This document shows positions 50,086-58,186 of a stretch of 64,000 bases of DNA, in pieces (position 1 is the stretch's first letter; each line of letters starts with the position of its first letter). Origin of the DNA: Olivibacter sitiensis DSM 17696 (GTDB lineage Bacteria > Bacteroidota > Bacteroidia > Sphingobacteriales > Sphingobacteriaceae); assembly GCF_000427965.1 (NCBI RefSeq), contig NZ_ATZA01000004.1, forward strand, positions 1 through 64,000. Direction: 5' to 3'. The notes below the pieces were generated by a model. That model was not told the origin of the DNA. It worked only from the letters and a program-made list of their open reading frames with translations, and made no database searches. The position numbers and the translations under genes were made by a program.

Positions 50086-51006
50086 ATGATTATAATGGCA
50101 AGAAAGCGACTGGATATCCTGTGGAAAGGCATACTCGAAGACCTGTTCATCGAGTTCCTTCGCTTCATGGTACCAAATGCCGATGAGATCTTCGATTTCG
50201 AGCGGGGTCTGGATTTTCTCGACAAGGAAATGGAGCAGCTTTTTCCTCCCGAGGGAGACGAGTTCTCCCTCAAGGTGGTGGACAAATTGGCGCGGGTGTA
50301 CAGGCGCACGGGCGAGGAGGAATGGGTACTCATTCACGTGGAAGTACAGCACCAGTACCGCAACAACCTGGCCAGGAGGATGCTGGACTACTACGTGCGG
50401 ATAAGGGACAAGTACGGCGTGTCCATCACGGCCTTTGCCATCCTCACCGAGGCTAGCACCAGGCAGCGGCCCGACACCTACGAGGAGGGCTTCCTTGGCA
50501 CCAGACTTCGCTATACGTTCAATACCTTTAAGGTTTCCCGGCAGACAGACGAGGAGCTGTTGGCCAATGGTAATCCCTTTGCGCTGGTGGTGCTGATAGC
50601 CAAGACGGCCTTTGCGGGCAGCAACATGAAGGAAAGCGGGCAGCGTGACGGTGCGTTACTGGCCGCAAAGGACAGGCTGATGCGCGAACTGGTATCGCGC
50701 GGCATGCCCACCGAGAAGATCAGGGTGCTTATGAACTTCCTCACCTACTATGTACATTTTGAGGATGAGGAAATAAGTGCTATCTTTGAGGAACACAAAA
50801 GGGAAATAATAGGAAGGAGCGAAACCATGGGTATAGAGGAACAATTGCTGGACATAGCCCGAAAGGAAGAACGTGCCAAAGCCGAAGCCGAGAAATTGGC
50901 CGAGAAAAACAAAGCCGCCAAGAAAATGCTACAAAGCGGTTTTGATGTGCAGCTAGTGGCGGACATCCTTGATATGACAGTAGAACAGGTGGAGAAGCTG
51001 AAATAG
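50086..51006 (+). CDS. Rpn-family PD-(D/E)XK nuclease/putative transposase-related protein
   Basis: The product is about 306 residues from the ATG at 50086 (50095 also fits); the promoter box makes the upstream in-frame codons unlikely. The N-terminal domain matches the Rpn/PD-(D/E)XK family: GILEDLFIEFL, then the catalytic elements Asp66 (VVDKLARV) and Glu86-x-Gln88 in VLIHVEVQHQ. The middle part contains FAILTEAST and RYTFNTFKV. The C-terminus is a coiled coil with a repeated KAEAEKLAEKNKA stretch and a small helical domain (VQLVADILDMTVEQVEKL). These proteins promote recombination and are often multicopy; the gene is G+C richer than its neighbours, hinting at mobility. A terminator follows. 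Confidence 0.85.
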   Translation: MIIMARKRLDILWKGILEDLFIEFLRFMVPNADEIFDFERGLDFLDKEMEQLFPPEGDEFSLKVVDKLARVYRRTGEEEWVLIHVEVQHQYRNNLARRMLDYYVRIRDKYGVSITAFAILTEASTRQRPDTYEEGFLGTRLRYTFNTFKVSRQTDEELLANGNPFALVVLIAKTAFAGSNMKESGQRDGALLAAKDRLMRELVSRGMPTEKIRVLMNFLTYYVHFEDEEISAIFEEHKREIIGRSETMGIEEQLLDIARKEERAKAEAEKLAEKNKAAKKMLQSGFDVQLVADILDMTVEQVEKLK

Positions 51007-51097: not shown

Positions 51098-51326
51098 AAT
51101 GTAAACCTGCGCAAGCGTAGGTTAAAGACACCACGCAAAGGCCACGGACACCACCAAGAAAGTCAGCAAGCTCAACTTGCAGGATACGACCTTTCAATTG
51201 CAGGAGGTGGGGGTGAGCACATGCAAGTACTACCCTTGGTTCAAATATGTTTCGGCCTTTCAATTGCAGGAGGTGGGGGTGAGCACGGGGTATCAGACTA
51301 TTTCCAAGGAAAGAGCTAGCGGGTAA
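51098..51326 (+). pseudogene. N-terminal remnant of a SusC/RagA receptor gene
   Basis: This stretch is similar to the 5' part of the intact susC gene at 53104: the first 45 bases or so (TGTAAACCTGCGC, AAAGACACCACGCAAAGGCC) are nearly identical, then the frame reads [21 protein letters not shown] and VSTGYQTISKERASG before a stop, equivalent to the [18 protein letters not shown] region there. It has an in-frame stop in the signal-peptide part, a frameshift, and an internal 66-bp duplication (copies of a 31-bp piece at 51190-51220 and 51256-51286). It cannot encode a receptor. It is likely the residue of a deleted or recombined SusC gene. Confidence 0.8.
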
Positions 51327-51331
51327 CTCAC

Positions 51332-51342
51332 TTTGCCAATAG
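51332..51342 (+). promoter_or_regulatory. TTTGCCAATAG motif before the MNT-HEPN gene
   Basis: The 11-mer occurs at 51332-51342, 20 nt before the start codon, and again at 52739-52749 over the susC promoter. The half-site TTTGCCAAA forms a palindrome at 52634-52652. It is a candidate binding site shared by the three units. Confidence 0.5.
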
Positions 51343-51361
51343 ATTTCCCTATCTTTACCTC

Positions 51362-52225
51362 ATGAGAACCGATATTTCACATTTGCCAAACATCAAGCAG
51401 GATGAAATCAGACGGATCACCGAAATCATCAAGGATGTAACAAAACCGGAGATGATCATCCTCTTTGGCAGCTATGCCAAGGGCAACTATGTGGAACATC
51501 GCTATGTGTCAGAAGGTATCAAATACGAGTATATCAGCGACTATGACTTTCTGGCAATAACGAAAGGTGATCCAGAGAAAGTGCACCTGCAGGAAAATCA
51601 AATCCTAGAATTGACGGACGGGTTTATCCCGCCGGTAAATCTGGAAATACACGGGCTGGATTATGTCAACAAAGGGCTGGAATGGGGTGAATATTTTTGG
51701 GTAGATATCGTTGCCGAAGGCATCGTTTTGTATGATAGGGGAACCATTCAATTTGCAGATCCCAAGGAACTGACGAGCGCAGAGAAAAAGGAAAAAGCAC
51801 AACGGTATTTTGACACATGGTTTTTCCAAGGCAGCGAATTTTTAGAGGGAGCACACTTTTATCTCAATAGAAGCAATTTAAAAATCGCCTTATTTCAACT
51901 CCATCAAGCAGCAGAAAGTTTGTTTAATACCATTTTGCTGGTCTTCTCTGGCTATAAACCCAAGACGCACAACCTTTGGAAGCTGCGCAAAAAGTCCAAG
52001 CCACATTCCGAAACGCTGTTCCTTCTGTTCAGGACGGAGACCGATAAAAGTGAAAAACAACTATTTGAATTGCTAAAACAGGGATACATAGATGCGCGAT
52101 ACGGGCAGGATTTTCATATTGTTGAAAAGGACTTGTTGATTTTGATCAAAAGAGTTAGCCTCATGGTGTCCCTTGTGGAGAAAATATGCCGGCTGCATAT
52201 ACTTGAACTTGGCAAGGAGCCATAA
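51362..52225 (+). CDS. Nucleotidyltransferase (MNT) and HEPN domain protein
   Basis: A 287-residue fusion of two domains. Residues about 25-110 form a minimal nucleotidyltransferase with LFGSYAKG (36-41) and the acid pair in SDYDFL (Asp60, Asp62). Residues about 130-280 form a helical HEPN domain (ALFQLHQAAESLFNTILLVFSGYKPKTHNLWKL region, split). Such MNT-HEPN pairs are known as toxin-antitoxin modules when encoded separately; here they are fused and lie in front of a susC operon, so an RNA- or protein-modifying role is possible. I saw no clear R-x4-6-H RNase motif. An HTH protein gene converges on its 3' end. Confidence 0.85.
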   Translation: MRTDISHLPNIKQDEIRRITEIIKDVTKPEMIILFGSYAKGNYVEHRYVSEGIKYEYISDYDFLAITKGDPEKVHLQENQILELTDGFIPPVNLEIHGLDYVNKGLEWGEYFWVDIVAEGIVLYDRGTIQFADPKELTSAEKKEKAQRYFDTWFFQGSEFLEGAHFYLNRSNLKIALFQLHQAAESLFNTILLVFSGYKPKTHNLWKLRKKSKPHSETLFLLFRTETDKSEKQLFELLKQGYIDARYGQDFHIVEKDLLILIKRVSLMVSLVEKICRLHILELGKEP

Positions 52226-52232
52226 GCTCTGT

Positions 52233-52634
52233 TTATTTGTTTTTCTTCCGTTTGATGAGGGTATTTGACTGGGCGGATTCTTTAAGCAACTGATTTTCCT
52301 CTTTCAGTATCATGATTTTTCTTTCATAGTCCTTCAGGAGATCTTCTTTTCGTTCTATAATGCCTCTAAGCTCTTGATTTTCCATGGTCAACTTATGTGA
52401 ATCAATTTTCGAAATAGAGCTTAAGGGCTCGAAGTCATAATAATATTGGAAGAAGTCATGATTAAAAGCCTTGCAGAAGGTTAGTAGCACTTCGGTGTTG
52501 ATGCTAGATTTTTTGATTATACGGTAGTAGTTCTGTTTGGTCATATGCAGTTTCTGCAAACAGAAAGTATCCATGTTGTCAATTTTTACATTGGCTACAA
52601 AATCTCTTATAATATTGCCGATATGAATATCCAT
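52233..52634 (-). CDS. HTH/coiled-coil protein, possible regulator
   Basis: A 133-residue protein. The first 65 residues look like a Cro/C1-type helix-turn-helix without a firm family (IIRDFVANVKIDNMDTFCLQKLHMTKQNYYRIIKKSS, split), with CKAFNHDFFQYYYDF after it. Residues about 75-125 form a coiled coil (ELRGIIERKEDLLKDYERK). No signal peptide. Its start codon abuts a perfect palindrome (52634-52652), consistent with autoregulation. It is divergent from the susC leader promoter and convergent with the MNT-HEPN gene (7 bp between stops). A local regulator is the most natural reading, not proven. Confidence 0.75.
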   Translation of the reverse strand: MDIHIGNIIRDFVANVKIDNMDTFCLQKLHMTKQNYYRIIKKSSINTEVLLTFCKAFNHDFFQYYYDFEPLSSISKIDSHKLTMENQELRGIIERKEDLLKDYERKIMILKEENQLLKESAQSNTLIKRKKNK

Positions 52635-52652
52635 TTGCCAAAGTTTGGCAAA
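52634..52652 (-). promoter_or_regulatory. Palindrome at the start of the HTH gene
   Basis: TTTGCCAAA and TTTGGCAAA are exact inverted copies around one G. It begins at the first base pair of the start codon of the HTH gene. Its half-site is shared with the motifs at 51332 and 52739. Confidence 0.6.
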
Positions 52653-52711
52653 GGCATTTACTTAATTCAATAAATAAATACACAATATAATTACATATAG
52701 TAAACATTTTA

Positions 52712-52749
52712 TTGCTTTTTGACTATATATGTGTTATATTTGCCAATAG
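52712..52749 (+). promoter_or_regulatory. Promoter of the susC operon with overlapping operator motif
   Basis: TTG (52712-52714) and TATATTTG (52735-52742) are 20 nt apart, an excellent match. TTTGCCAATAG (52739-52749) overlaps the box and continues past it, so a factor binding there would compete with RNA polymerase. Confidence 0.7.
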
Positions 52750-53103
52750 CTAGTAAATAATATATTTCTTTTAGTCATTACCGGGAGCGTGAGAAACTCC
52801 AGCAATGACGGAAAAAGAAAGAACATATAGCAAGACTTTTAAGTGCGGGGCCACATTTCTATCTTCCGTGAGCATTTTCTCACGCCTCGGTAAAACAGAA
52901 ATGGGCCTCGCCTTAAATCCCTTTTCATCGAATGCCAGCTTTTGGAGTAAAGACACTTATCCTTTGGTGCACTTCACTTTGTTTGACCTCTTGTTCATCT
53001 GCAAACCTAAAAACCCAGTGTAACGATTTGACACGTTCCACCGATTTGTATCGGTATTTTTCGTTGTTTATCAACTAATTGCTTAACCGTATCAATTTAA
53101 GAA
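52743..53103 (+). promoter_or_regulatory. Long structured leader of susC
   Basis: About 350 nt separate the promoter from the susC start. Hairpin A is GTCATT (52774-52779) with AATGAC (52804-52809), with GGAG and CTCC pairing inside. Hairpin B is CGTGAG (52867-52872) with CTCACG (52879-52884). The segment GCGTGAGAAA (52787-52796) can instead pair with TTTCTCACGC (52876-52885), so A and B compete with a long-range stem. A 72-codon frame from 52805 and an opposite 61-codon frame cover the same bases but neither is supported as a gene. The layout suggests an attenuator. Confidence 0.5.
53040..53061 (+). terminator. Terminator-like hairpin just before susC
   Basis: ACCGAT pairs with ATCGGT around TTGT and is followed by ATTTTT. 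It lies 42 nt before the susC start, in the right place to be the terminator of an attenuator. The stem is short. Confidence 0.45.
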
Positions 53104-56100
53104 ATGAAGCAAAATTTACGCTTTCGGGCATGCTATTGCCCTAGCCCATTCATTATAAAGCATCTATTATCGACGATACTTTTATTCCTATTATGTAAAC
53201 CTGCGCTTGCGCAGGTCAAAGACACCACGCAAAGGCCACCGGTCGTGGATACCATCAAGAAAATCATCAAACGTAGCCTACAAGACACCACCTTTCAGTT
53301 GCAGGAGGTGGAAGTGGGCACGGGGTATCAGACTATGCCGAAAGAGAGCGCTACGGGAAGTTTCTCTCATGTCGACAACGAGCTGTACAACCGCAAGGTG
53401 AGCAGCAACGTGGTAGACCGCATAGCCGACCTGGTGCCAGGACTCTCCTACAACACGCCCGGCGACGGGCTGCTAATACGTGGGCGCAACTCCATCTATG
53501 CCGACGTGAACCCGCTCATCGTGGTGGACAACTTCCCCTTTGACGGCAACCTGGACAACATCAACCCGAACGACGTGGAAAGTATCACCGTGCTGAAAGA
53601 TGCGGCCGCTGCCTCCATCTGGGGCGCCAGGGCGGGCAACGGCGTCATTGTCATCACCACCAAAAGGGGAAAGACGGCCAGGCCACAAGTGGCCTTCAAC
53701 TCCAACTACAGCGTGCAGGGCAGGCCCGACCTGTACGGTCTGCCCATCATCTCATCGGCAGACTACATCGAGCTGGAAAAGGATCTCTTCTCCAGGAACT
53801 ATTACAACACGCAGATTACCAATGAGCGGACCAAGGCTCCGCTGACGCCCGTAGTGGAGATATTGCAGCGGCAACGCCTGGGGGAACTGACCGAATCGGA
53901 AGCAAACGCGCTCATCGACGTACTGAAAGCCAACGACGTAAGGGAAGATCTCATGCGCTACTTCTACAGGAATAGTACCGCCCTTCAACAGGCGCTGAAC
54001 GTCAGTGGCAGCACGCCCACGGTGAACTACTACATGTCGGCAGGCCACGACAGGGACAGGGACGAACTGGTGCAGGGCACGGACAATTCGCGCATCACGC
54101 TCCGCAACAGAAACACGTTCCAAATTGGCCGAAAGCTAAAGGTGCAGACCGGGCTTACCTTTTTGCAGAACACACGCAGCATCGGCAACAACCCCGGCAG
54201 GAACATCAACAGCGGCACCGGAAAGGGGCTCTATCCCTATGCCGACCTGGTGGACGAGCAGGGCAATCCGCTACAACTGGTGAGGGACTTCCGCCGGATA
54301 TACGTCGACACCGTTTCTTCGCCGCTGGACTGGCGCTATTTTCCATACGCCGATCTGGGCACGGAAGAGCGCACGAACACCTATAGGGACTATGTGGTCA
54401 ACGGTGGGGTTGAATATGACATCATACCCGGCCTGAATGCCCAGGTAAACTACCAGTATGGTTTTTCCTCCACCGCCAGTGTCAACCAATCGGACGTGGC
54501 GTCCTATTACACGAGAGATCGGATAAACCGCTTCTACCAACCCAATGCCACCAATCAATACCCCATTCCGATCGGGGATATCCTTACGGCGAGCAATAAC
54601 GAAAACGTTTCGCACCAGTTGCGTGGGCAGTTGAACTTCGGCAAAAGCATCGCCACAGACCATGAAGTGAGTGCCCTTGGGGGGTTTGAGATCAAACGGA
54701 CGGACACAAGGGGCAGGTCCTATACCATGTACGGGGTGAAGGACGACGGCAGTCAGGTAAACACACTGATCAATTTTAACGAAAGCTATCCGCAGTTCAA
54801 CAATACAGCTTCACGTAGTATGATACCCAATTCACAGAGCATCTCACAATCGGCAGATCGTTTCATCTCCTACTACGGCAACGTGGGCTACCAGTATAGA
54901 AACAGCTATTCCTTGACGGGCAGCATACGCAAGGACGCCGCCAACCTGTTCGGCGTGAATACCAACCAGCGCGGCGTCCCCTTATGGTCGGCAGGACTTG
55001 GATGGCAAATCCACAACGAACCGTTCTATCCTTTTCTCGCCCTTCCCTACCTCAAGCTACGGGCAACGTACGGTAGCAACGGCAATTTTAGCAGGCGGGC
55101 ATCCGCACTGTCCACCATTTCCTATGGCATATCGACCAACAACACTACATCGGCGACCATCAGTGCCCCTCCCAACAGTTTGCTGCGATGGGAGCAGACC
55201 AGGATAGCCAACCTCGGGCTGGATTTTGCCACCAGGGGCAATAGGCTGTCAGGTACATTGGAATATTACAAAAAGAACATCAGGGACATACTGGCAGAGG
55301 CTCCCGTAGACCCAACGATGGGTGTATCCACCTTTTATGGGAACGTGGCCAGCATGAAAGGGGAGGGATTGGAGGTGGAGCTGAATGCCAATCTCCCCCT
55401 GTCATCCCGCTCCAGCTGGCAGGGAAGTTTCCTTTTTAGCTATGCGCAGACAAGGGTGACGGAATACCTCCTGCCCATGCCTCCTACCAATCTGGTGCTT
55501 GGTTCCAACAGTGGCGTGACACCGATACTGGACAGGCCCATAAAGACGGTATACAGCTATGCATGGGCGGGGCTGAACCCGGAGAACGGCAACCCGATGG
55601 GCTATATCCATGGTGAGCCTAGCGAGGACTATACGGCACTGACCAATATCGCGGTAGAAGACCTGGTCTACAACGGTGCCGTGCAGCCTCCCTATTTTGG
55701 CGCTTTCCGCAGCGGGTTCACCTGGGGCGGTTTCTCTTGCTCGTTTACGGTCAACTACCGCTTTGGGCACTATTTCAGGAGGACATCCGTCTACTACGGC
55801 ACGCTGTACAGCAACTGGACGGGACACTCCGACTATGGGTTGCGCTGGCAGGAGCCCGGCAACGAGCTAAGCACGCAGGTGCCATCGATGGTCTATCCAG
55901 CAAACAGCTCGCGAGACAACTTCTATACCAATGCGGAGGTGCTGGTAGAGAAAGGGGACTACATTCGGCTGGAGGACGTGCGGCTACAGTATACCGTCGG
56001 TAGGAAACTCATGGGCAATCTGCCCTTTCGACAGCTTACGTTCTATGCATACACAAGCAATCTGGGGTTGCTCTGGGCAGCAAACGACAGAGGCATAGAC

Positions 56101-56166
56101 CCCTCCTACCAAAATTCGCCCGTACTGGGCAAGAGAATATCGTTTGGACTCAACTTTAGTTTATAA
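53104..56166 (+). CDS. SusC/RagA family TonB-linked outer membrane receptor
   Basis: A 1020-residue TonB-dependent transporter that imports a substrate with its SusD partner. After a signal peptide (about 1-36, cutting near LAQ) there is a short Pro-rich linker and then the [20 protein letters not shown] motif, a plug domain (about 85-200: [49 protein letters not shown]) and a 22-strand barrel ending in FGLNFSL. The N-terminal carboxypeptidase-like domain found in most SusC proteins is missing, so this is the shorter class. The coding sequence is clearly more G+C rich than susD. It is followed by susD after 5 bp. Confidence 0.96.
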
Positions 56167-56171
56167 GAATT

Positions 56172-57608
56172 ATGAAAAATAGATTAACCTCCATGGGCTA
56201 TTGCCACCTGATGGCCCTTATCTTTTGCCTTATGCAACTTGCCTGTACGGACTCCAGCTTCCTCGATGCCGTGCCCAATAAAAGTTTGGTCATCCCACAT
56301 ACACTGGATGACTACCAGGCCATTTTGGACAATGATAGGTTTATGAACGGAAGCGTTAGCTCGAATTATGGTGTGACACCCGCACTGGGAGATATGGGAG
56401 CTGATGATTATGTGTTGTTGGAGAGTTTTGAAGATCACCCCATCATGGATAATGAATATGCAAACATATATACTTGGCAAAGCCACATTTTTGAGAGGAG
56501 CGGTATTCATGGCGACTGGACCGAACCTTATAGAACAGTTCTTTATGCCAATATGGTGTTGAACGGAATAAAAGACATTCATATAACAGAGAATGATAGG
56601 GGGGAATATGAGAAGATAAGAGGAAGTGCTCTTTTTTATAGGGCACATGCCTTTTATCAGTTGGCGCAGATTTTTGCACCGCCATATCCGATTAACGAAA
56701 ATGCTTCATTACTGTTAGGTATTCCATTACGACTCGATAGCGACATAAATGAACCGTTGCAGATAGCCAATTTGGAAGACACGTACCAAAGGATAATCCT
56801 TGATCTCGAAATATCCATACCTTTATTGCCAGAAAAAGCACAGTTCAATACACGCCCCTCTAAGGCAGCGTCTCATGCATTATTAGCTAGAACCTATCTG
56901 GTGATGCATCAATACCAGAAAGCAAAAGATCACGCGGATTCTTGCTTAATGATAAAGGATGATTTGCTTGATTACAATGAAGTTCTACAACAGTCTGGGG
57001 AGCAATCGCTTTATCCATTTGGAGACGCTAGAGAAAATAAGGAAATTATTTTCTCTAGTTTGATGGTGAACCAAAATGCCAACTTAAAGGACGGTTTTTT
57101 CTCTGTTACACCTGCAACGTTACTTAATCAATATGGGAGTGGAGACTTAAGAAAAACACTATATTTCCATAATGAGGAATGGGGAATTACGTATTCAGGA
57201 AGTTATAGCAACAATAATTATTACCAGCATTTCTCAGGATTGGCCACGGATGAAATATACCTCGTCAGGGCCGAGGCAAAGGTTCGTCTCGGTGACCATG
57301 CAGGAGCACTGGACGACCTAAACTCATTGCTGATAAAAAGACACGATGCTACATTTAACGGGATATCTGCATCTTCAAGTTTGGATATCCTCGATGCAAT
57401 ATTGAGCGAACGAAGAAAGGAATTGTTGATGCGCGGATTGAGATGGACGGATTTGCGTCGCTTAAATGAAGAAGGGTATAACATTACTATTAGTCGAAAA
57501 TTCCGTGGCCGGACCTATTCACTGCCTCCAAATGACCCTAGGTATACTTACCCCATCCCTCCCAATATTATGGTATTCAATCCGACCTGGCCCCAGAACG
57601 CACGCTAA
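56172..57608 (+). CDS. RagB/SusD family lipoprotein
   Basis: A 478-residue surface lipoprotein with lipobox Cys25 (LAC) that captures the substrate for the SusC barrel. It has the SusD start FLDAVPNKSLVIPHTLDDY, a TPR-like core (LFYRAHAFYQLAQIF, AASHALLARTYLVMHQYQKA) and the C-terminal RRKELLMRGLRWTDLRRLNEEGY segment, all family hallmarks. The ligand cannot be read from sequence; no carbohydrate enzyme is encoded nearby, so a non-polysaccharide substrate is possible. It lies between susC and a TlpA protein in a three-gene unit. Confidence 0.95.
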   Translation: MKNRLTSMGYCHLMALIFCLMQLACTDSSFLDAVPNKSLVIPHTLDDYQAILDNDRFMNGSVSSNYGVTPALGDMGADDYVLLESFEDHPIMDNEYANIYTWQSHIFERSGIHGDWTEPYRTVLYANMVLNGIKDIHITENDRGEYEKIRGSALFYRAHAFYQLAQIFAPPYPINENASLLLGIPLRLDSDINEPLQIANLEDTYQRIILDLEISIPLLPEKAQFNTRPSKAASHALLARTYLVMHQYQKAKDHADSCLMIKDDLLDYNEVLQQSGEQSLYPFGDARENKEIIFSSLMVNQNANLKDGFFSVTPATLLNQYGSGDLRKTLYFHNEEWGITYSGSYSNNNYYQHFSGLATDEIYLVRAEAKVRLGDHAGALDDLNSLLIKRHDATFNGISASSSLDILDAILSERRKELLMRGLRWTDLRRLNEEGYNITISRKFRGRTYSLPPNDPRYTYPIPPNIMVFNPTWPQNAR

Positions 57609-57613
57609 AGAAA

Positions 57614-58186
57614 ATGAAGTTAACGATTACGATACTGACCGTTTTGTATTTTGTTGGTGAACAATCCGCTATTGCACAACAAAAGTTCAAACCTTTAAGT
57701 GTTCACGATACGGTGCCAGAACTGGAATTGAAAATGATCAACTACAAGGCTCCAACCGTAAAGTTGAGCGACTTTAGAGGTAAACTGCTCATTCTTGATT
57801 TTTGGTCCAAGTGGTGCTCAGTATGTATTGCACAGTTCGCAAAGGTCAAAAAACTGCAAGACGAATTTGGTGACGGCATTTTTATTTTGCCTGTAGGTTA
57901 TCAAACAGATATGAAATGGGATAACATAGAACACTTTTATGAACAGCGAATATCCATGGGGAACCCGATTGAAATCCCTTCAGCCGTACAGGATATGAAA
58001 ACTGACACATTGCTTAGGAGGCTATTTCCCTTTTCGGCAGTTCCGTACCTGATATGGATAGACCATTCAGGTACAGTATTAGGAATTACCTCCCATCATG
58101 CCTTGACGTCAGAAATGATACAAATTTACCTCGATGACCATAGACGTTTGGAAAAGCTGCGTGGAGCATTTGACAAAATAAAATAG
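57614..58186 (+). CDS. TlpA-like thioredoxin
   Basis: A 190-residue exported thioredoxin-fold protein with a signal peptide (about 1-21) and the active site FWSKWCSVC (Cys68, Cys71). The AhpC/TSA-type N-terminus KAPTVKLSDFRGKLLILDF is typical of TlpA/ResA-like thiol-disulfide proteins. Gene order after susC-susD with a 5-bp gap suggests it helps maturation of the receptor system or of an exported partner. A hairpin follows the stop. Confidence 0.92.
   Translation: MKLTITILTVLYFVGEQSAIAQQKFKPLSVHDTVPELELKMINYKAPTVKLSDFRGKLLILDFWSKWCSVCIAQFAKVKKLQDEFGDGIFILPVGYQTDMKWDNIEHFYEQRISMGNPIEIPSAVQDMKTDTLLRRLFPFSAVPYLIWIDHSGTVLGITSHHALTSEMIQIYLDDHRRLEKLRGAFDKIK

Follow-up and report, generated by a model that had tools for sequence, protein, structure and literature searches.

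An MNT-HEPN gene and a divergent HTH gene beside the folded, translated leader of a SusC receptor operon in Olivibacter sitiensis

Gene order at the locus

The DNA analysed here, called the window below, is a stretch of 64,000 nucleotides from Olivibacter sitiensis DSM 17696. A fused MNT-HEPN gene (51362-52225, forward strand) encodes a nucleotidyltransferase with a C-terminal HEPN domain (Pfam HEPN, 39.9 bits). It is followed tail-to-tail by a gene for an HTH/coiled-coil regulator on the reverse strand (52233-52634). On the other side of the HTH gene, a leader with a short ORF precedes a receptor operon on the forward strand, which consists of a SusC gene (53104-56166), a SusD-like gene (56172-57608), and a TlpA/thioredoxin-like gene (57614-58186; AhpC-TSA, 38.7 bits). 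The SusC gene scores 448 bits with TIGR04056, above the cut-off of 368.

SusC receptors set what Bacteroidota import, and they can act as phage receptors. The SusC, SusD, and TlpA-like genes are those of the SusCD/RagAB operons of Bacteroidota. Such operons are usually controlled by an ECF sigma/anti-sigma pair, a hybrid two-component system, or an antisense RNA, whereas a divergent HTH gene and a translated leader are found here. SusC control is poorly known beyond polysaccharide loci.

Two further features lie on the upstream side. The stretch 51099-51318 (forward strand) is a second, decayed susC 5′ end; it repeats 53193-53353 with 77-91% identity, is partly duplicated (tandem shift of 66 nt), and indicates that the island was rearranged in the past. 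A gene resembling the Rpn family of recombination-promoting nucleases adjoins the island at 50095-51006 (33.8 bits, below the cut-off of 52.1).

Is this gene set found elsewhere? A sequence-only reading of the window had regarded a non-conserved order as evidence against its own proposal. Instead, examination of the neighbourhoods of MNT-HEPN homologues showed that the MNT-HEPN/HTH/SusC set is strongly conserved. In more than ten genomes, the MNT-HEPN gene converges on the HTH gene, and a TlpA/SusC/SusD operon follows divergently from the HTH gene on the MNT-HEPN strand; in the conserved order, the leader stands between the HTH gene and the operon, and TlpA is optional. The stop codons of the MNT-HEPN and HTH genes lie within about 20 nt of each other in those loci. 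The HTH proteins in this slot belong to several unrelated-looking subfamilies, most of which have clear XRE/Cro-C1 profiles. Thus, the slot is kept while the regulator changes. The one genome in the species collection with an ortholog of the window HTH protein (63% identity) is that of Agriterribacter humi, which has orthologs of both window proteins next to a SusC-SusD operon, arranged as in the window (locus L102). The earlier remark that no described system with this set was known agrees with the literature searches made on SusC leaders, leader peptides, HTH/TlpA, and MNT-HEPN, which returned no description.

A common sequence word and a palindrome

The sequence-only reading had drawn attention to an 11-mer, TTTGCCAATAG, before the MNT-HEPN gene and over the susC promoter, and to an exact palindrome formed from its half-site at the HTH start codon. 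Both observations held. The 11-mer matches exactly at 51332-51342 and 52739-52749 on the forward strand, its only two copies in the window. The palindrome TTTGCCAAAGTTTGGCAAA (52634-52652) is 19 bp long with an exact 9-1-9 symmetry and touches the start codon. A fourth forward copy of the word TTTGCCAA had been overlooked; it lies at 51382, inside the MNT-HEPN gene. In the 1.42 kb concerned, TTTGCCAA was counted five times against 0.27 expected from its rate in the rest of the window, giving P values (about 1e-5, or 2e-4 with the palindrome counted once) that make the enrichment look stronger than it is, since the interval was picked by its own sites. The 5.05-Mb genome has 22 copies of the 11-mer, and a same-strand pair within 1.4 kb would arise somewhere in it with a chance P of 0.06. 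Sharing of an 11-mer between the region upstream of the MNT-HEPN gene and the HTH-susC gap was better than in all 200 of 200 shuffles, and dinucleotide shuffling of the 190-nt region that contains the palindrome gave p = 0.02 for it. The sites and the palindrome are real and modestly above chance.

These numbers would fit the proposal of a single regulon, made up of the HTH gene itself, the MNT-HEPN gene, and susC, in which the HTH protein recognises TTTGCCAA as a common site at all three promoters. In A. humi, however, TTTGCCAA is missing at all three corresponding positions; the orthologous locus lacks the 51332 site, and the CCAATAG part of the 52739 site is not retained in the HTH-susC gap. 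Among 13 relatives, no word common to the MNT-HEPN and HTH/susC upstream regions was found above chance. Thus, a three-promoter regulon is unsupported by conservation. What is kept instead looks like promoter sequence. The sigma-A -7 consensus of the phylum is TAnnTTTG (PMC9723704), and the -7 box of the susC operon, TATATTTG (52735-52742, forward strand), fits it and contains the TTTG of the 52739 site. The gap alignment retains this box as TATATTTG in the window and as TAAATTTG in the A. humi ortholog. The MNT-HEPN gene has a kept element of its own, which in most loci reads TATCTTTAC or nearly so and stands 5-8 nt ahead of the ATG; in the window, the likely -7 box is TATCTTTA (51350-51357, forward strand), like the box in most relatives. 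The 11-mer site at 51332 is absent from the 13 relatives. By this comparison, TTTGCCAATAG is mostly promoter sequence not common to relatives, and TTTGCCAA, which is no conserved regulon signature, is not what ties the three units together. The shared-operator regulon was therefore rejected, by orthology and by the shared-word tests alike, and I regard it as unlikely.

The palindrome deserves a separate judgement. It has no second exact copy in the 5.05-Mb genome, and its sole near-copy, with one mismatch (L193, 3977-3995; G000:C49:39976-39994), lies 95 bp upstream of a different SusC gene, which is followed by SusD. This near-copy also counts in favour of the regulon just discussed. I estimate the chance of such a position at well under 1%, on the basis of 56 scored SusC genes, with more left unscored. 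Thus, TTTGCCAAAGTTTGGCAAA remains a plausible candidate operator. The A. humi alignment at the HTH start keeps only the core CAAAnTTTG, and strong palindromes are present in the HTH promoters of some relatives too.

The window HTH protein itself scores 15.7 bits against an HTH profile (cut-off 22), and HTH_3 is matched by seven of the 12 members of its family. AlphaFold modelling of the protein alone gave a helical N-terminal domain and a long C-terminal helix, at low confidence, the N-terminus included. No homologues on plasmids were found. The sequence-only reading had predicted that this protein controls itself, the MNT-HEPN gene, and susC. Control of itself and of susC is likely because of the divergent position of the HTH gene, and the palindromes in the relatives' HTH promoters and the near-copy point the same way; the part that did not stand is the single site acting on three units. 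I consider it probable, with some confidence, that the HTH protein would bind its own divergent promoter region and repress both itself and the receptor operon.

The leader RNA and its ORF

The main feature of the locus had escaped the sequence-only reading: the region between the susC promoter and the SusC gene comprises a leader RNA and a leader ORF. All elements are on the forward strand. A hairpin, P1 (GTCATT/AATGAC, 52774-52809), read from the sequence and present in the folds, encloses arm A (52778-52796). Its 3′ strand contains the start codon of the leader ORF in the window and in several relatives. Arm B (52837-52859), arm A′ (52876-52893), and arm B′ (52898-52917) follow. With the order A-B-A′-B′, the two helices are interleaved and cannot both form as simple nested hairpins, from which I infer that A:A′ and B:B′ are alternatives or parts of a pseudoknot.

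Comparison of leaders shows both helices. Duplex energies were better than in shuffles for A:A′ in 29 of 30 leaders (p ≤ 0.02) and for B:B′ in 28 of 30 (p ≤ 0.05). The arm sequences differ among leader groups, yet the duplexes remain. In an alignment of 31 rows, which include a match on the reverse strand of locus L068, 10 of the 16 A:A′ pairs have changed on both sides. Double-change cells numbered 39 against 13.5 in shuffles (0 of 500 reached this), counts that overstate the independent events because the sequences are related. The A:A′ score was 0.188, against at most 0.093 when the arms were slid.

Could A and A′ be inverted repeats in DNA, that is, inversion sites for phase variation, rather than RNA arms? 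The repeats GCGTGAGAAAC/GTTTCTCACGC are indeed near-identical and inverted, 70-100 bp apart. However, the segment has one orientation at all homologous loci, on which ground inversion was rejected, and an inversion would break the conserved B:B′ helix, as B lies inside the segment and B′ outside. I consider this explanation very improbable.

No Rfam match was found for the leader of the window or of its relatives, with either the gathering threshold or a relaxed E-value, on which basis a known riboswitch or leader was rejected. A DNA search for copies of the leader elsewhere in the same genome returned only the leader itself.

The leader ORF (52805-53023) encodes 72 amino acids ending in LLFICKPKNPV. 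A homologous ORF in A. humi (L102, 9586-9831) has the same KPKNPV-stop end, with synonymous third-position changes. A degenerate search of 299 genomes for the codons of a KPKNP[VI]-stop end gave forward matches far outnumbering the control. Most of these matches are the ends of short ORFs, [CY]PF[DN]RL[YF]ALKPKNPV-stop, and lie at most about 280 nt upstream of TlpA or SusC. Among 25 KPKNP leaders, single differences in the last 8 codons were synonymous in 733 cases and nonsynonymous in 323 (expected, 256 and 800), while the codons further upstream were neutral (96 and 417, against 110 and 403 expected). Leaders in MNT-HEPN loci mostly end in [C/S/K/T][P/A]P[E/V/D]-stop. In this class, the last 7 codons gave 445 synonymous and 156 nonsynonymous differences, exactly reversed in expectation (156 and 445), and only 30 and 47 synonymous ones when read in the wrong frames. 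As with the covariation, relatedness of the sequences makes all these counts larger than the number of independent events. The substitution pattern shows that the leader ORF is translated and that its C-terminus is conserved. A Pro-X-stop end is common to all leader ORFs of both classes, where the ribosome may pause. With a variable N-terminus and a conserved C-terminus, these peptides look like regulatory leader peptides.

Leader-peptide attenuators of the TnaC/trp type, including Bacteroid-trp (RF01692), likewise have a short translated ORF with a conserved C-terminus in a structured leader with competing helices. In contrast, the peptides described here end in KPKNPV or CPPE rather than in a run of one amino acid; the leader is without an Rfam match, belongs to a SusC operon, is tied to HTH and MNT-HEPN genes, and has no terminator established as general. 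A weak terminator-like hairpin does follow the leader stop codon in the window (53040-53061, forward strand; p = 0.29). Post-stop terminators are striking in some relatives, and 10 of 25 loci had p ≤ 0.05. However, so did 8 of 25 control stretches, and a general terminator was not established. Thus, premature termination is only one possible output of the leader. The nearest description concerns Flavobacterium, in which amino-acid operons are reported to be preceded by structured 5′ regions and to be subject to leader-peptide attenuation (PMC9723704).

How closely is this leader tied to the MNT-HEPN gene? A covariance model was built from ten leaders, using A:A′ only; these leaders all came from loci beside MNT-HEPN genes. 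It gave 12 matches in 299 relatives and 29 in 399 genomes of the family. In 394 genomes of the class, it gave three matches, all previously known, and thus the leader class is narrow. Eighteen of the family matches (L163-L180) were neither in the model nor reached via an MNT-HEPN gene. One of these new loci is cut upstream by a contig end. Of the remaining 17, 16 have an MNT-HEPN gene on the same strand, 288-619 nt upstream. In most of the 16, an HTH gene lies between, and SusC follows wherever the contig is long enough. The exception, L178 (E = 6e-5), has no partner gene at all and is probably a false or decayed match. These comparisons show that leader and MNT-HEPN gene co-occur tightly. Since 11 of 23 MNT-HEPN loci have no detectable leader of this class, the dependence is one-way.

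Plain linkage has to be weighed at this point. The MNT-HEPN and HTH genes might move together and land next to receptor operons without a functional tie; some MNT-HEPN genes occur without SusC, and the decayed susC 5′ end upstream of the MNT-HEPN gene shows that this locus was rearranged in the past. Against this count the constant orientation and tail-to-tail spacing, a leader that is specific throughout the lineage (16 of 17 new loci), and a slot that is filled by different HTH subfamilies. I hold this explanation to be decidedly unlikely. The joint inheritance of an enzyme gene, a regulator gene, and a folded, translated leader in dozens of genomes points to an undescribed kind of receptor control.

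The MNT-HEPN protein and a possible receptor switch

What might the enzyme do? The nucleotidyltransferase GS and DxD residues (G36, S37, D60, and D62) are invariant in 16 homologues; for the window protein, Pfam Polbeta and NTP_transf_2 score slightly below their cut-offs. In the same 16-sequence alignment, the Rx4-6H RNase motif of HEPN is not conserved; the arginine is sometimes lysine, and the histidine is not retained. A survey of HEPN domains (PMC3710099) describes the same domain order, with HEPN fused C-terminally to nucleotidyltransferases, and the same loss of Rx4-6H, and it suggests substrate binding. Its text has no mention of TonB or Sus, nor of the neighbourhood seen here. The sole solved relative found by sequence is 4nqf, an entry titled only nucleotidyltransferase. 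On the basis of the invariant GS and DxD, the lost Rx4-6H, and the survey, I read the protein as a nucleotidyltransferase whose HEPN domain would bind RNA or protein, and not as a type VII toxin-antitoxin pair. HepT-MntA, the type VII system, shares with it the MNT and HEPN domains and the catalytic GS..DxD. However, HepT-MntA consists of two adjacent genes, a toxin and an antitoxin, while the window has a single fused ORF. The window protein also lacks a conserved Rx4-6H, scores 15.2 bits against the NCBIfam MntA model, far under the cut-off of 60, and is linked to a receptor operon.

A related possibility is a toxin-antitoxin or phage-defence module of the MNT-HEPN protein and the leader RNA. 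The RNA would serve as antitoxin or sensor, and the receptor operon would be cargo or encode a guarded phage receptor. In favour of it, a structured RNA is specific to MNT-HEPN loci, and genes resembling toxin-antitoxin or defence genes (DarT with a macro domain, AIPR, HEPN-like, and DUF6934) lie near the HTH gene in KPKNP loci without MNT-HEPN. However, of four MNT-HEPN proteins run through PADLOC, three had no match and one a weak, partial match, the RNase motif is not conserved, and the RNA lies in the susC leader, beyond the HTH gene and outside the MNT-HEPN transcript. Such a module seems rather doubtful to me.

The reading that I favour is that an HTH-repressed, translation-sensing leader governs the receptor operon, with the MNT-HEPN protein as its dedicated partner; on the sequence data, this is reasonably probable. 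In addition to repression by the HTH protein, P1 would hide the leader start codon, and A:A′ would compete with B:B′. This folding, together with ribosome progress or a pause at the conserved Pro-X-stop end, would determine if transcription or translation extends into the receptor operon, a step that I consider fairly likely. More tentatively, the MNT-HEPN protein might modify or sense the leader step, probably by nucleotidylating an RNA, for instance a tRNA or the leader itself. It is still more speculative that the MNT-HEPN protein has co-evolved with a pseudoknot-capable translated leader, that a change made to the tRNA or leader lets the ribosome pause at or pass the Pro-X-stop and so switches the receptor, for example under phage attack, and that receptor operons with this type of leader are more widely wired to toxin or defence genes via HTH proteins. 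With its new structured RNA, its conserved leader peptide, and the enzyme that co-occurs with them, the locus is a concrete, testable candidate for a switch. It also places fused MNT-HEPN proteins, which have a HEPN domain without the RNase motif, in a functional context for the first time.

Within the family, other SusC operons are also preceded by KPKNP[VI]-stop leaders, and the mechanism may therefore be a general one in this group. Of the KPKNP-leader loci without MNT-HEPN, 11 of 11 checked have SusC downstream and an HTH gene in divergent orientation. The genome of the window has such a locus itself (L182; G000:C1:2000-16000), with a second KPKNP-type leader, a divergent HTH gene, DUF6934, and TlpA/SusC/SusD genes, and a homologue of the Rpn-like gene lies in its vicinity. 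Neighbours of the HTH gene at other loci of this kind include DarT with a macro domain (L183), AIPR (L191), and a weak HEPN match (L192); a possible HEPN near the HTH gene of L185 was judged by eye only. The neighbours seen at these loci give a lead towards a possible link between receptor operons and toxin or defence genes.

Leaders of a quite different kind were noticed before several other SusC genes (L093, L096, L098, L099, L117, L119, and L120). They have long RNA-like repeats, such as ATCTGGTAAATTT...TACCAGAGCC, that had no Rfam match where tested and may represent more classes of leader RNA.
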